Origin: Candidatus Electrothrix communis
GTDB taxonomy: Bacteria > Desulfobacterota > Desulfobulbia > Desulfobulbales > Desulfobulbaceae
NCBI GenBank assembly: GCA_030644725.1
Contig: CP130629.1
Location: forward strand, 248,001 to 312,000
Direction: 5' to 3'
Length of the DNA stretch: 64,000 nt
The notes under the pieces were generated by a model. That model saw nothing but the letters and a program-made list of their open reading frames with translations. It had not been told where the DNA came from and made no database searches. Within the stretch, counting starts at the first letter, position 1; the number at the start of each line of letters is the position of its first letter. Positions 9,043-16,360 of the stretch are shown here, one piece after another. Both the position numbers and the translations under genes were made by a program.

Positions 9043-9981
9043 CTATCGGGGCACGAGCGCAGTTTGTATGGCCTTGGCCATTTGCCTGAGGTTCTGTTCG
9101 ATATCTTCCGCCAAAGGATCCAGTCCTGCAAGCGTACCCTTGATAGCTTGGGCCACGGTCTGGGCATTTCTCCGGTCAAATTGGGGTTGGACAAAGAGAA
9201 TTTTGACCTTGTCCGCCTTTGCCTTTTTAACCAGGGCATAGAGCTGCTTGGGCGAAGGGGCCTTTCCTTCGATTTCCACCGCCTCTTGATGCAGGCCGTA
9301 GGCATGGGCAAAATAACCGAATGCAGGATGAAAAACGAAAAAGGTTGCGCCTTGGAACGGGGCGAGCTGTTGCCCCAGTTCTTGATGGAGCAGGGTTAAC
9401 CGTTCTTTGAGGGCTTGAAGATTCTGTTGATAGGCAGCAGCATGTTTTGGATCTGCTGTTGTCAGAGCCTCTGTCATGGCCGAGGCCATTTTTTCTACAT
9501 TACGTGGATCGAGCCAGAGATGCGGGTCTGCATGTTCCTGGGGCTGCTCTGTTTCCTCATGTCCGTGTCGGTCATGTTTTTCATGATCTGCTTCATGGTG
9601 ATGGGCTACCATAGGAATTTTTTTGATGCCCGTTGTCACGTCAATGAGCCGGAGGACGGTGTCTTTATTTTTATGACTGTTTATTTTTCGCGCGATTTCC
9701 TGTTCAAAGGGCATTCCCACTGTAAAATAGAGGCGGGAGCGAAATAAGGCGGTCATTTTTTCTGGGCTTGGCTGGTAGGTATGCGGCTCCTGTCCCTTAT
9801 CCAACAGAACCTGGGTACTGACGAAATCACCACCCAGTTGCTCAACTATCCATTTTTGCGGGCCAATGGAGACAAAGACGGGCAAGGGTACGGTCTTTGC
9901 CGGAAGATTTGCCGGAAGCATTGCGGTTGAGAGCAGGAAGAAACAACTCAGAAAAAAAAATGTACGTGCTTTTGCTTGCAT
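9043..9981 (-). CDS. znuA: Zinc ABC transporter periplasmic substrate-binding protein
   Basis: 312 residues, cluster A-I (ZnuA/TroA) binding protein. Residues 1-28 form a signal peptide (cleavage near LPAKT). EPHTYQPSPEKM holds the first metal-binding His; the loop HHHEADHEKHDRHGHEE is the His-rich loop typical of zinc- rather than manganese-binding members; HADPHLWLDP and FHPAFGYFAHAYGL hold the further ligands. It captures periplasmic zinc and passes it to ZnuB. First gene of the znuACB operon; a dyad upstream (10026-10040) may be regulatory. Confidence 0.9.
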   Translation of the reverse strand: MQAKARTFFFLSCFFLLSTAMLPANLPAKTVPLPVFVSIGPQKWIVEQLGGDFVSTQVLLDKGQEPHTYQPSPEKMTALFRSRLYFTVGMPFEQEIARKINSHKNKDTVLRLIDVTTGIKKIPMVAHHHEADHEKHDRHGHEETEQPQEHADPHLWLDPRNVEKMASAMTEALTTADPKHAAAYQQNLQALKERLTLLHQELGQQLAPFQGATFFVFHPAFGYFAHAYGLHQEAVEIEGKAPSPKQLYALVKKAKADKVKILFVQPQFDRRNAQTVAQAIKGTLAGLDPLAEDIEQNLRQMAKAIQTALVPR

Positions 9982-10040: not shown

Positions 10041-10107
10041 CAGGGGATAGACAAATTTTGACAGGTAGTAAAGAAAATTATACCTTAAAAAAGAGGGTAT
10101 GTCACGG

Positions 10108-10398
10108 TTATGTCAATTTTTGTGAATCGTGCTCAGCTTGCAAGGCCTGCGCAACAAACTTTCTGATAGCCGCCGGGCCGAGAAAGAATTTACTCAGCCT
10201 CTGCTCTCCGGCCTGCAAGGTCGGGATCATTATAATCCTTTGTTGCAAGGCCTTTCCCGGATTGGTCAGGATATCCACCGACGGAACCTTGAGCTCGGGA
10301 AATTCCCGTTGGAGTTCGGTCAGCAGCTGGCGGACCAGTAGGCAGCGCGGTCAGAGGGCTGAGGTGTAAAAGATAATGCCGGTATCAGGTTTCTTCAT
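10108..10398 (-). CDS. Thioredoxin-fold protein with in-frame UGA (probable selenocysteine, UPRC motif)
   Basis: Read from ATG 10398 with the TGA at 10351-10353 translated as Sec, the frame gives a 96-residue protein: MKKPDTGIIFYTSAL-U-PRCLLVRQLL and so on to TAA at 10108. The UGA falls exactly at the first position of the CxxC active site (Sec16-Pro-Arg-Cys19). The sequence after the UGA stays thioredoxin-like: helix LLVRQLLTELQREF, then VPSVDILTNPGKALQ, and IIMIPTLQAGEQ with the conserved cis-Pro, ending in helix AAIRKFVAQALQ. Such proteins are thiol/selenol oxidoreductases. The start overlaps the mscS stop by 14 bp, suggesting coupled translation. By eye only a weak hairpin (CUGG/CCAG arms, loop UCCG) follows 12 bases after the UGA. 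Alternative: a pseudogene or a base error (TGC to TGA). Confidence 0.7.
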
Positions 10399-11557
10399 CA
10401 GGTGGAGGCTCGGGTTCAGGAGAACGGGTAAGGTCAGCGACCGGGTTCGGACCGGGGTCTGGATCTGTTTCGTCCGTTTCAAAATCCCTGTCAAAATGCA
10501 AGGTACGCTGGGGAAAGGGTATCTCAATTCCCTTCTCTTTAAAAGCGATATGGATCATCTTGAGCAGATGATGGGTTTGCAGCCCCCGCTGAGCAGGTTC
10601 TTCCACCCAAACCAGAAGCTGGAGAAAAATGGATGATTCACCGAAGCTGCGCACTCTTACCCTTGGTTCCGGCTTTTTTTCCAGGGCATGATGCTCCTCT
10701 GCAACCTGAAGCAGGGTTTTTTCCACCGTTCGTAGGTTGCTGTCGTAACTTACGTTGATATCAATACGGATTCGAAAGCTGACTTCCGGGGCGGATTGAT
10801 TGATGATCTTGGTGGTGGACATGATGGAATTGGGTACCGTGATCATCACGTCATCCCTGGTTTTGAGTTTGGTAGAACGAATGCCTAGCTCCGTCACTTC
10901 GCCCCGTTCTCCGGTTCCGAGGATAATATAATCTCCTACTTTATAGGCGGCATCGGTGAACAGAGCAATGCCGCCGAAGAAATTGGCCAGGGTGTCCTTG
11001 GCAGCCAAGGCAATGGCGATACCGACAATACCGGCTGAAGCGAACAGGGGGGTCAGATTGACTTCCCAGATAATCAGCGCCCAGATGATCCCGATAAAGA
11101 GGAGGATGATCCGCGAGATGTTCTTCAGCATGTAGAACCTGGTCTTGTCGAACTTCCGCAGAGCCCATTGGGTATTATTCTCATTCATGACCGTAATCTC
11201 CCGAATCAGGGAGACCCACCAGACCGCTAGAATCAGGGTTTTGATCACGTTGGGAAGAACGGTGTCCCAGGGCGACGGAAATGTCGGTTCCAGGAGAGCG
11301 GCGTGAAGGAGGCCGAGGAGAAGAACAGACAGGACCGACGGACGACGGATGAAGCGAGCAAAATGTTCATCCACATCAAAGCTGGTTCGGGTGGCAACCG
11401 GAAGTAGAATTCTGCTGATAATAATATCAGCCGCCTTGCTCAGAATGATATAAAAGCAGATAACAGTGAAGCGTTGCCCGAACTGATATTGGCCGAGGTC
11501 AGGCAGGGTGGTGCTGAACCAGTGCGTGAAGGCTTGGGGCAGGATACTGACGTCCAT
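10385..11557 (-). CDS. MscS family mechanosensitive channel
   Basis: 390 residues. Three to five membrane segments in the first ~180 residues lead to the MscS pore helix and beta domain: FASAGIVGIAIALAAKDTL followed by ANFFGGIALFTD, then GDYIILGTGERGEVTELGIR and TVPNSIM, all typical of the MscS/YnaI group. It releases solutes on hypo-osmotic shock. The C-terminus is a Pro/Glu/Asp-rich tail (PEPEPPPDEET). The 3' end overlaps the start of the UGA-containing thioredoxin-like gene. Confidence 0.88.
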   Translation of the reverse strand: MDVSILPQAFTHWFSTTLPDLGQYQFGQRFTVICFYIILSKAADIIISRILLPVATRTSFDVDEHFARFIRRPSVLSVLLLGLLHAALLEPTFPSPWDTVLPNVIKTLILAVWWVSLIREITVMNENNTQWALRKFDKTRFYMLKNISRIILLFIGIIWALIIWEVNLTPLFASAGIVGIAIALAAKDTLANFFGGIALFTDAAYKVGDYIILGTGERGEVTELGIRSTKLKTRDDVMITVPNSIMSTTKIINQSAPEVSFRIRIDINVSYDSNLRTVEKTLLQVAEEHHALEKKPEPRVRVRSFGESSIFLQLLVWVEEPAQRGLQTHHLLKMIHIAFKEKGIEIPFPQRTLHFDRDFETDETDPDPGPNPVADLTRSPEPEPPPDEET

Positions 11558-11575: not shown

Positions 11576-11755
11576 TCAGGCGGATTGTTTCGAGGATAAG
11601 GGCTCGGCTTCTTCAATGATCATGATGGGGATACCATTACGAACTGCATAAGAGAGTTGGCAAGTATGGCAGAGCAGGGCTTTTTTGTCTTTGCTGAGCT
11701 CTATTTTGCCTTTGCATTGAGGGCAGGCGAGGATTTCAAGGAGTTCTTTTTTCAT
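11576..11755 (-). CDS. Trm112/UPF0434 family small zinc-binding protein
   Basis: 59 residues from ATG 11755. MKKELLEILACPQCKGKI has the first CPxC pair and LLCHTCQLSYAVRNGIPIM the second CxxC pair and the conserved RNGIPIM tail of the Trm112 family. These proteins bind zinc and act as partners or activators of methyltransferases. A longer upstream frame exists but lacks conservation. It lies 18 bases before mscS, so the three genes 11755-10108 are probably co-transcribed. Confidence 0.85.
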   Translation of the reverse strand: MKKELLEILACPQCKGKIELSKDKKALLCHTCQLSYAVRNGIPIMIIEEAEPLSSKQSA

Positions 11756-11966
11756 ATTTTTTTTGGATGGTTCTCTTGATCGGTAGAGCAGGATCAGCCG
11801 GGTCACCGGATGTTGTTTTGCCGGAGTTACTGAAGCCGCGTAACGTAGTATAATATGGATTTCATGATGCGTTCTCGTATCAGCAGTGTTAAGATTACGA
11901 GAATGCGATATTGTACCAGAAAAAAGAGTTACTGACAGCAAAACAACAAGAGGAACCGGAGAAAAG

Positions 11967-13144: not shown

Positions 13145-16100
13145 ATGAGCCTTTGCCCTATCAAATGCCCGATGAAACTTGTCGCCCTTTGTCTGCTGTT
13201 ATTTTCTGTTTTTACTGCTGAAACCTTTGCTGCCTCCCTTGATACCGGCTTCGGAGATAACGGGAAGGTTGCTGTGGATCTCGGATCATACGGTGACCAG
13301 GCCAATGCAGTGCTTGTTCAGCCTGACGGTAAAATCTTGGTGGGTGGGTCCACCTCCAATACTATTGATTTGGATTTTATGGTTTTTCGGCTCCGTGCTG
13401 ATGGGTCCTTTGATACAGAATTTAATATTGACGGTACCGTCTCCACAGCAGTTGGGTCCCATGATGATGAGGTCTTTGCCCTGGCCCTTCAGGAGAACGG
13501 CAAGATCCTCGCGGCAGGGTACAGCAGCAATAACGGAAGTCGGGATTTTGCAGTGGCTCGTTATAATATTGACGGTTCGCTTGACCGGAAATTCGGTCTG
13601 GAAGGGATGGTGGTGACTGCGGTCAGCGATTCTGATGACGAGATCACCGGTATTGCCGTGCAACCGGACGGTAAGATCCTGATGACCGGGACCGCCTTGG
13701 GCGACGAAGGACGGGTGGTGGTTCTGTCCCGCTACCAGAGCAACGGAACACCGGATCATACCTTTGCCGATGAGGGCTTCACTCTCAGTGCTGTGGGCAC
13801 GGATGCCCGAGCTGAAAGCCTGTTGTTGACCGAAGAGGGACGTATTCTTGTTGCCGGTACCTATAGTGAGGAGAAGAAAAACGAGAAGCAAGAGACCGCA
13901 CTCATGGTGCTTGGTTATGATGAAAACGGCGATTTAGACACCTCCTTTGGTTATGAGGGCGTGACCGTGCCCCTTGATGGCGCTGTGGCCAGTGCCGGCT
14001 ACGGTATGGCGCTCCGGGATGACGGCAGTATTCTGGTTGCTGGCTCTGTCGGAGAAGACGGGACACGGGATGGGGCGTTGTTCCTCTTTGGTGAGGGCGG
14101 GTTGCCGGACAGGACTTTTGGAGATAAGGGGGTTCTGGTTACAAGTGACGAGGGTGATACGGTCTTCTATGATGTCTTAGTGACTGAGGAGATGATTGCG
14201 GCGACCGGGGTGACGGTTGGCGAAGACGGGATGCGCGAGGCTCTACTGGTCACCTATGCAAAAGGGGAAGGCGTGAACAGCGAGCAGCTCTTTCAGCAGC
14301 AGGTAGCGGGTGTCTCAGCAGATGCAGCGGAGGCAGCTGAAGAAGGTTTGCAAGAGACCGAGCCGGTTGCTCAGATCGTGACCACAGAAGTGGATAATGA
14401 AGAAGATTATGCCTTTTCCCTTGCTGCGGCTGATGCAGGCAGTGTGGTTGTGGTCGGTTCCAGCGGTTCCCAGGAGGTCGCCAGTGCTGCGGTCCGTAAG
14501 TATACTATCTTTCAGTCAAGTGTTTCTGGAACATCCTGGAAAACAGCCACTGGTAATGCCTCTGTCCTGACCGGTGAGGCCCAGGACGTGACCCGGACAA
14601 CAGCTCTCATTCCGGGCGAGGTTCTTGCCGGGCTGGGCACGGTGACGGAGCGGGGGGTGGTGTTCAGTATTGATCCTCTTCCTGTTTTGAAAGACGGTGA
14701 GAGTACTACCGATGATACGGCGGACGACACGACGGATGATACCACCGACGATACAACAACCGATGATACTACCTCTGCGAGCGATGAAATCGGGCCGAGC
14801 ATAACCAGCAGCACAGAGAGTTCTTTTTCAACAACAGAGCCGGTTATTTTGGTCGTTTCTACGGATGAGAATGCAACCTGTCGGTACAATGCTCGGTATG
14901 ACGAGGATTATGGGGAAATGGGGGGCATTCTTTCCTCTTCCTTTGGTACAGGGCATCATCTTGTTTTAGGAACGCTTGCGGAAGGGGAGTATACCTTCTA
15001 TGTACGTTGTAAGGATGAAGAAGGGAATTTAAGTACCTCAGGAACCCCGGTAATCTTTGAAGTCTCAGCGGATGACACTGGAGCGCCGGTACGTAGTGAT
15101 CTGTCTCCCAGCGGTACGGTTTCAAGTACTTCTGTCACTCTCAGTTTAAGTACAGATGTTGCTGCAACCTGTAAGTATACAGAGTCTGATTCGAGGATGG
15201 ATTACAATGATATGAAGAAAGAGTTCGATGCTACGGGTGGAACAATCCATTCAGAGACAGTGTCGAGTCATATTGCCGGGGAATCTTATATATACTATGT
15301 ACGGTGCAAAAGCATTTCAACAGGAGCTGTAAATACCACCAGTAGTGAAATTTCTTTTACTGTTGATACCACGCCTCCAGATATTACAGATACTACGGAT
15401 GGTTCGTTTGCCTCAAGTGACTCTGTTGTGCTATCTGTAACGACAGATGAAGAAGCGACATGTAAGTATGACGTTACAGATGATACCTATGACTCTATGA
15501 CAAACGAGTTTTCCTCAAGTTTAGATGGAATGACACATACTGTGGACTTAGGAATAGGAACTCTGTCAGAAGATACACATACTTATTATGTCCGCTGCCA
15601 AGACACAGCAGCAACGCCGAATCAAAACCTAGAGAGTACGGTAATCTCTTTTGAAGTTACTGCTCAACTTAATACTGAAAATTCCACAGACTTCTATGCA
15701 GCTCAAGATTTTCCTGCTGCTGATATGCGGAACATTTTCAGTATGAGTCTGGAAACCGTGGGCAACCTGTTCATCAGCACCGCTATCGCCCAAGATGACA
15801 CGAGCACGACGACGACTACTACCGATAGCAGCACCGACACCACTGACGCAGACACCGAGGATAGCGATTTCTTAGAAGAGGGCAATGTTGAGGAAGGCTC
15901 AGGTACCGGCAAGTTCACCGCCAGACTGGAAGACCTCAAGCCCGGCACCTTTTTCTATGCCCGAGCCTATGCCGTGGTTGGTGGCACCACCTATTACGGT
16001 AATCAAATCGGTTTCCAGGCCGCAGATTCCTGCTTTGTGGCCACAGCAGCCTATGGTTCTCTCTTTCATCCCGCAGTCCAACTCCTTCGGGATTTCCGGG

Positions 16101-16360
16101 ATCGCTTTATGCTCGACAACCCGGTGAGTCGTTCTTTGGTGCATTTGTATTATCGCTATTCTCCGCCCATTGCCGACGTCATCAGCAGCAACACGATCTT
16201 GCGCCCCGTCACCAGGGCTCTGCTGATGCCCATTGTCGGTTCAGCGTGGCTGACCATGCGCTTTGGTTGGTTGTGGTTAATCCTGCCTGCGGCGGCTATG
16301 GCTCTGTTGAGCTGGCTCGGAATGCGGAGGATGCAGGTAGTGCGAAAGGAAGAGTTGTAA
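13145..16360 (+). CDS. Large secreted delta-60-repeat protein with CFI-box C-terminus
   Basis: 1071 residues. A signal peptide (LVALCLLLFSVFTAETFA) is followed by about six delta-60 repeats (residues ~32-400) of the type LDTGFGDNGKV...AVLVQPDGKILVGG, expected to fold as beta-propeller-like blades. Then come a Thr/Asp linker (DDTTDDTTDDTTTDD) and three ~85-residue Ig-like repeats, each with ATCKY or ATCRY near the start and YYVRCK or YVRCK near the end, so one disulfide per repeat. After a second Thr/Asp linker the tail has CFVATAAYGS (CFI box), then hydrophobic helices and a basic end (MRRMQVVRKEEL), a sorting-type C-terminus. A surface or secreted structural/adhesive protein is likely. Confidence 0.75.
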   Translation: MSLCPIKCPMKLVALCLLLFSVFTAETFAASLDTGFGDNGKVAVDLGSYGDQANAVLVQPDGKILVGGSTSNTIDLDFMVFRLRADGSFDTEFNIDGTVSTAVGSHDDEVFALALQENGKILAAGYSSNNGSRDFAVARYNIDGSLDRKFGLEGMVVTAVSDSDDEITGIAVQPDGKILMTGTALGDEGRVVVLSRYQSNGTPDHTFADEGFTLSAVGTDARAESLLLTEEGRILVAGTYSEEKKNEKQETALMVLGYDENGDLDTSFGYEGVTVPLDGAVASAGYGMALRDDGSILVAGSVGEDGTRDGALFLFGEGGLPDRTFGDKGVLVTSDEGDTVFYDVLVTEEMIAATGVTVGEDGMREALLVTYAKGEGVNSEQLFQQQVAGVSADAAEAAEEGLQETEPVAQIVTTEVDNEEDYAFSLAAADAGSVVVVGSSGSQEVASAAVRKYTIFQSSVSGTSWKTATGNASVLTGEAQDVTRTTALIPGEVLAGLGTVTERGVVFSIDPLPVLKDGESTTDDTADDTTDDTTDDTTTDDTTSASDEIGPSITSSTESSFSTTEPVILVVSTDENATCRYNARYDEDYGEMGGILSSSFGTGHHLVLGTLAEGEYTFYVRCKDEEGNLSTSGTPVIFEVSADDTGAPVRSDLSPSGTVSSTSVTLSLSTDVAATCKYTESDSRMDYNDMKKEFDATGGTIHSETVSSHIAGESYIYYVRCKSISTGAVNTTSSEISFTVDTTPPDITDTTDGSFASSDSVVLSVTTDEEATCKYDVTDDTYDSMTNEFSSSLDGMTHTVDLGIGTLSEDTHTYYVRCQDTAATPNQNLESTVISFEVTAQLNTENSTDFYAAQDFPAADMRNIFSMSLETVGNLFISTAIAQDDTSTTTTTTDSSTDTTDADTEDSDFLEEGNVEEGSGTGKFTARLEDLKPGTFFYARAYAVVGGTTYYGNQIGFQAADSCFVATAAYGSLFHPAVQLLRDFRDRFMLDNPVSRSLVHLYYRYSPPIADVISSNTILRPVTRALLMPIVGSAWLTMRFGWLWLILPAAAMALLSWLGMRRMQVVRKEEL

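Follow-up and report, generated by a model that had tools for sequence, protein, structure and literature searches.

A candidate thioredoxin-fold selenoprotein with a UPRC active site in Candidatus Electrothrix communis

The small thioredoxins of the MJ0307 type (TIGR00411; PDB 1fo5) have the motif CPxC, and the protein described here, which is encoded in a 64,000-nucleotide stretch of the genome of Candidatus Electrothrix communis (the window, meaning the whole stretch that was analysed), resembles them in having a small thioredoxin fold. The best match of its family profile among PDB sequences is 1fo5 (Thioredoxin; E 3.5e-12), which we take to be MJ0307 itself. The arginine of the UPRC motif stands where 1fo5 has histidine and 1nho has tyrosine, and the UPRC family, unlike the MJ0307-type proteins in this comparison, has a form with selenocysteine (Sec). 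TIGR00411 gives the window protein 25 bits (cut-off 92.75) and matches 87 of 93 family members at E<=0.01; for PF00085 the values are 19.1 bits (gathering threshold 23.5) and 60 of 93, and PF00462 gives the window protein 15.3 bits (gathering threshold 22.9). The window protein thus falls below every curated cut-off tested.

Sec-x-x-Cys chemistry in a thioredoxin fold is of a kind already known. The available part of an inventory of 119 selenoprotein families (PMC13188914) covers, in general terms, UxxC selenoproteins of the thioredoxin and glutaredoxin types, which share with the UPRC protein the Sec at the first position of UxxC and the thioredoxin fold, and it includes a thioredoxin selenoprotein, WP_010956703.1; a UPRC-type motif is not named in that part of its table of 119 families. 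The Uxx-star (NF041212) and UXX-star (NF047338) glutaredoxin-like (seleno)proteins show weak profile similarity to 15 and 9 of the 93 members, respectively (E<=0.01), and neither model matches the window protein at E<=1. The hypothetical selenoprotein GOS_C (NF045500) likewise joins UxxC to a thioredoxin-like fold, according to the available part of PMC2398784, but its model (Omp28_seleno) has 377 positions against the 96 residues of the UPRC protein, and its three weak matches in the window genome at E<=10 all lie elsewhere than the UPRC gene.

A literature check that is itself incomplete returned no match for UPRC together with selenocysteine, reviews included, and the matches for CPRC with thioredoxin and active site concern other subjects, to judge from their titles. 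As far as the available parts of these papers go, the 12 selenoproteins listed for Desulfotalea psychrophila include no thioredoxin (PMC1794560), the lone novel selenoprotein candidate of a further study is a cytochrome (PMC1914089), and Deep-Sep (PMC12013277) finds 22 known and no new selenoproteins in Desulfolithobacter dissulfuricans GF1, while the same paper counts at least 40 selenoproteins in Desulfosediminicola flagellatus and D. ganghwensis.

A thioredoxin-fold reading frame with one UGA

The features discussed below are the following.
10108..10398, minus strand: candidate thioredoxin-fold selenoprotein gene, 96 codons and a TAA stop, with one TGA read through (from the translation with TGA as U)
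10351..10353, minus strand: in-frame TGA, candidate selenocysteine at codon 16, the first residue of UPRC (66 TGA against 84 TGC/TGT among 150 homologues)
10317..10337, minus strand: putative SECIS hairpin in the type A register, stem of nt 17-24 with 30-37 (numbered from the U of the UGA), apical loop nt 25-29 (CAGCU)
10222..10224, minus strand: conserved cis-proline codon, Pro59 (column P59 of alignment A1), with Pro in 150 of 150 homologues and the cis form suggested by the fold
10385..11557, minus strand: upstream gene of an MscS-type mechanosensitive channel (ORF list and Pfam MS_channel domains)
9043..9981, minus strand: downstream znuA, the binding protein of zinc ABC transport (Pfam ZnuA), given as context
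10105-10077: promoter-like site between the UPRC gene and znuA (promoter scan, 5 sites in a region where chance would give 2.1)

The coordinates and sequence features given in the original prediction hold in their particulars. Translation with TGA as U from the ATG at 10398 gives 96 residues beginning MKKPDTGIIFYTSALUPRCLLV, the TGA at 10351-10353 is the only one in the frame, the predicted stretches SALUPRCLL and IMIPTL are both present, and the start overlaps the mscS ORF by the 14 bp that had been claimed, the MscS type of that ORF being borne out by Pfam. According to the ORF list, no ordinary minus-strand ORF of at least 60 amino acids lies over the UPRC gene apart from the overlap with the MscS ORF. 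Elsewhere in the window, a small protein with a Trm112p-like domain (Pfam) is encoded upstream of mscS at 11576-11941 on the minus strand, and an ORF of 1071 residues at 13145-16360 on the plus strand appears, by eye, to encode a large repeat-containing protein, secreted or of surface type, with the stretch FVATAAYGS in its C-terminal part.

The AlphaFold2 model has a thioredoxin fold (mean pLDDT 85.8, pTM 0.75), with U16 placed just before helix 17-32. With this model as the query, the best Foldseek match has an E value of 7.8e-6, and VIA-align superimposes 85 residues on the thioredoxins 4hu7_B and 1v98_A (Z 12.2, rmsd 2.1 and 1.9); it also gives a Z of 12.5 to fold-switched KaiB. Among the best 50 rows of both programs, most are thioredoxins, their fusions or their complexes, judged by title.

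We propose, with a probability of roughly 87%, that the UPRC protein is a small thioredoxin-fold thiol:disulfide (selenol) oxidoreductase with Sec inserted at the UGA of codon 16. SelB would bring Sec-tRNA to this codon, directed by the hairpin just downstream, and if Sec is inserted there, the active site would therefore be Sec-Pro-Arg-Cys. Judged by the fold, the attacking selenolate would be Sec16, where helix 1 begins, and the resolving thiol would be Cys19, facing the cis-Pro59. We infer both the insertion of Sec in this strain and the redox chemistry, and the protein is presumably cytosolic, no signal peptide being seen by eye.

The gene neighbourhood indicates no shared function, and the context in the window, with mscS and znuA, differs from that at other loci, where histone-deacetylase-like, CBS, adenylate cyclase and Na/Ca-exchanger-like genes are found. 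In the family coded f6, the next gene at 37 of the 150 loci (L100 and 36 others) encodes a Na/Ca-exchanger-like membrane protein at a median gap of -1; this assignment scored 24.6 bits in one member, just below the Pfam cut-off of 24.9. An adenylate cyclase gene lies upstream at 40 of the 150 loci, with a median gap of 35.5.

Selenocysteine and cysteine forms in the order

By protein search, 158 of the 257 genomes searched in the order contain a relative. The homologue set comprises 150 sequences from 149 genomes among the matches listed, 9 matched genomes being left out, and late stops (TGA in six rows, 69-73 codons further on, and TAA or TAG in six rows, 67-77 codons further on) were taken as natural ends, at which the protein was cut. 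It had been suggested that related genomes should be searched for Cys or Sec at the column of the window TGA, and among these 150 homologues the column holds 66 TGA, 52 TGC and 32 TGT codons and no codon for anything other than Sec or Cys. Because 66 TGA and 84 Cys codons, and no others, occur in 150 homologues, the interruption by TGA is more than chance. Pro-Arg of the active site is present in all 150 sequences and the second Cys in 149.

Sec and Cys forms are unevenly spread over the family codes, with U/C counts of 21/8 in f1, 32/39 in f6, 11/10 in f13, 2/2 in f8, 0/18 in f7 and 0/7 in the rest. At least 14 exchanges between Sec and Cys are needed on the tree of the 150 rows, a number that is a rough minimum because the tree has few columns (81) and 71 of its 147 forks are open. 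Some single loci may be noted in passing: G070 (L007) has the UPRC form, G083 carries two copies, one with Cys and one with Sec (L098 and L129), and the Sec form of G096 (L121) is UPRS, with Ser in place of the resolving Cys.

When the phylum was searched (395 genomes drawn from a larger group), matches outside the order were weak throughout, the best having an E value of 1.2e-7, and a query with the single protein for related loci in genome contigs found no relative. A search with alignment A1 yielded 51 loci; its pattern admits Cys only, and these loci are therefore uninformative about Sec forms. Two Cys relatives lie in gammaproteobacterial MAGs (L215 and L229), near a gene on the opposite strand. 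This gene is presumably DsbD-like, a name given by eye.

The genes for Sec decoding, whose presence was the second point proposed for checking, are all four found in the window genome, each above its cut-off (selA 552 bits, selB 374 bits, selD 343 bits and tRNA-Sec, the product of selC, 74.8 bits), and selD itself contains an in-frame TGA, read as CGUAAK. Across the order, a selA match is present in 215 of 257 genomes. It is present in 127 of the 149 genomes that bear a homologue and absent in 22, seven of which have the TGA form. In these seven, selB is above the cut-off in every case and tRNA-Sec in five, the other two genomes being 74% and 78% complete; SelA was found in none of the seven, neither by profile nor when the SelA of the window genome served as query, a query that did match three relatives with known selA at 62-64% identity. 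We reject the notion that a Cys form is the sign of a genome devoid of Sec machinery, a selA match being present in 68 of the 83 genomes with Cys forms only.

It should be noted that three near-complete genomes (G113, G126 and G127; L277-L279 and L282-L284) have selB and tRNA-Sec above the cut-off and no SelA by profile, and that a protein search for SelA gave matches only at E 0.2 or worse. Next to their selB and tRNA-Sec, only one weak match (24.8% identity) was found to the genes that neighbour SelA in three relatives. The missing SelA in these genomes could be due to masked sequence or to a divergent Sec synthase.

The sequence after the TGA was compared with the same region after the Cys codons by folding it against a null in which the protein is kept and synonymous codons are drawn. 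The mean z is -1.44 for the 66 Sec forms, and the 84 Cys forms average -0.05 (P=6.5e-12, a value that ignores the kinship of the sequences). From the Sec forms, two stems of fixed position were then derived, and their pairs were counted in Sec and Cys forms alike. In f6, a type B hairpin (nt 27-31 with 37-41) has all of its five pairs in each of the 32 Sec forms and in 2 of the 39 Cys forms. Outside f6, the type A stem (eight pairs, 17-24 with 30-37) has a mean of 6.38 pairs in 34 Sec forms against 3.53 in 45 Cys forms, although only 14 of these Sec forms have seven or eight pairs and the other 20 have five or six. Slid registers score lower, at best 5.71 (type A) and 2.75 (type B). Taken together, a type A stem of at least seven pairs or a full type B stem is present in 46 of 66 Sec forms against 4 of 84 Cys forms, and the kinds of pair vary, with CG, AT, TG and GC all occurring at 21-33. 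Tested one sequence at a time against the synonymous null, p<0.05 is reached by 14 of 32 (type B) and 8 of 34 (type A) Sec forms; the corresponding counts for Cys forms are 2 of 39 and 1 of 45. According to the available part of PMC13188914, bacterial SECIS elements have a G in the first two positions of the apical loop and, for most, a distance of 16-37 nt from UGA to loop; loop position 2 is a G in all 32 Sec forms of f6 and in 31 of the 34 others.

The downstream element that the original prediction had asked for is thus much commoner in Sec than in Cys forms, but the window copy taken by itself does not reach significance (p=0.12; folding z=-0.48), and the three Rfam matches near the site are at chance level. 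The window copy has seven of the eight type A pairs, as does the copy of its congener G080, with the loop 21 nt from the UGA, within the published range; in its loop, CAGCU, the G comes third and A stands where 31 of 34 forms have G. A column of Sec or Cys only, the decoding machinery, a hairpin across the family and the predicted fold, all read from sequence, strongly support the selenoprotein that had been claimed, with UGA at the first active-site Cys, and indicate that the UPRC family is a real selenoprotein family.

The window copy and the alternatives

The function of the window copy is less certain than the reading of the family, because the gene is decayed or lost in close relatives within the genus. 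At the mscS site, an intact gene is found in only one of seven congeners, G080, whose protein is 73% identical and whose gene also has the TGA. G081 keeps a remnant of residues 1-16 and 35-55 with the part between missing (E 1.9e-6), G076 keeps about the first ten codons at the expected place, at an E of only 0.40, the stretch beside mscS contains no trace of the gene in G077, G078 and G082, and G079 has no close mscS match. In the six congeners other than G080, no UPRC match was found genome-wide at E<=0.001. Decayed copies in close relatives had been named as evidence that would speak against a functional gene, and they are partly present: the congeners do show decay or loss, but G080 is intact. 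With an intact gene in G080 and remnants or absence in the others, the genus can therefore do without the gene, and the window copy, although its frame is unbroken, may be loosening.

The alternative that survives best accepts a true selenoprotein family but regards the window copy as an early pseudogene or a gene under relaxed selection, with the frame still open and Sec insertion or activity lost as in the congeners. Besides the remnants in G081 and G076 and the empty stretches in G077, G078 and G082, the unusual residues of the window copy and the missing loop G speak for it. At four conserved columns whose commonest residues are R/K, E, R and G, the window protein has Q, P, I and K, the commoner residue is in G080 at 14 and in the window copy at 8 of the 22 columns at which the two differ, and in profile score the window copy ranks 17th lowest among 150, compared with 88th for G080. 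The dN/dS between window copy and G080 is 0.29 overall (0.31 with a slightly different choice of codons) and 0.26 past the TGA, above that of the neighbours znuA (0.23) and mscS (0.12). On the other hand, this ratio is well below 1 at a dS of 0.63, all 96 codons are intact with neither a second stop nor a frameshift, the active site and Pro59 are kept, and the hairpin retains seven of eight pairs, just as in G080. We regard an early pseudogene as unlikely; the window copy is probably functional, perhaps under relaxed constraint.

A second alternative, to which we attach very little weight, is that the UGA is a real stop, leaving a 15-residue leader, or that one of the plus-strand ORFs at 10058-10369 or 10129-10341 is the true gene. 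Such ORFs do exist in a mechanical sense, but protein conservation runs through the minus frame before and after the TGA, and past the TGA dN is well below dS in the UPRC frame (0.195 and 0.704 between the window genome and G080), which is less clearly so in the two other minus frames (dN 0.278 and dS 0.372 in one, dN 0.312 and dS 0.111 in the other). A recent change of TGC to TGA, or a sequencing error, in a plain Cys gene is scarcely credible as the origin of the TGA in spite of the Cys in 84 of 150 homologues, given the TGA in the 73% identical copy of G080 and in 64 further genomes and the downstream hairpin, which is present in TGA forms and mostly missing from Cys forms.

The selenoprotein reading of the UPRC family has consequences beyond the window. 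Standard gene calling is expected to cut or miss such genes, and if the reading holds, at least 66 of the 257 searched genomes carry a UPRC selenoprotein. A more far-reaching proposal, for which we would give slightly less than even odds, is that UPRC is an uncatalogued selenoprotein family with at least 14 Sec/Cys exchanges within one order, in which two SECIS hairpins (loops at nt 25-29 and nt 32-36) have arisen separately in different families. If this is true, the family would provide a natural series for watching SECIS elements arise inside coding sequence. Sec and Cys forms side by side in one order, with a hairpin that is common in the former and rare in the latter, offer material to test the gain and loss of selenocysteine in bacteria.
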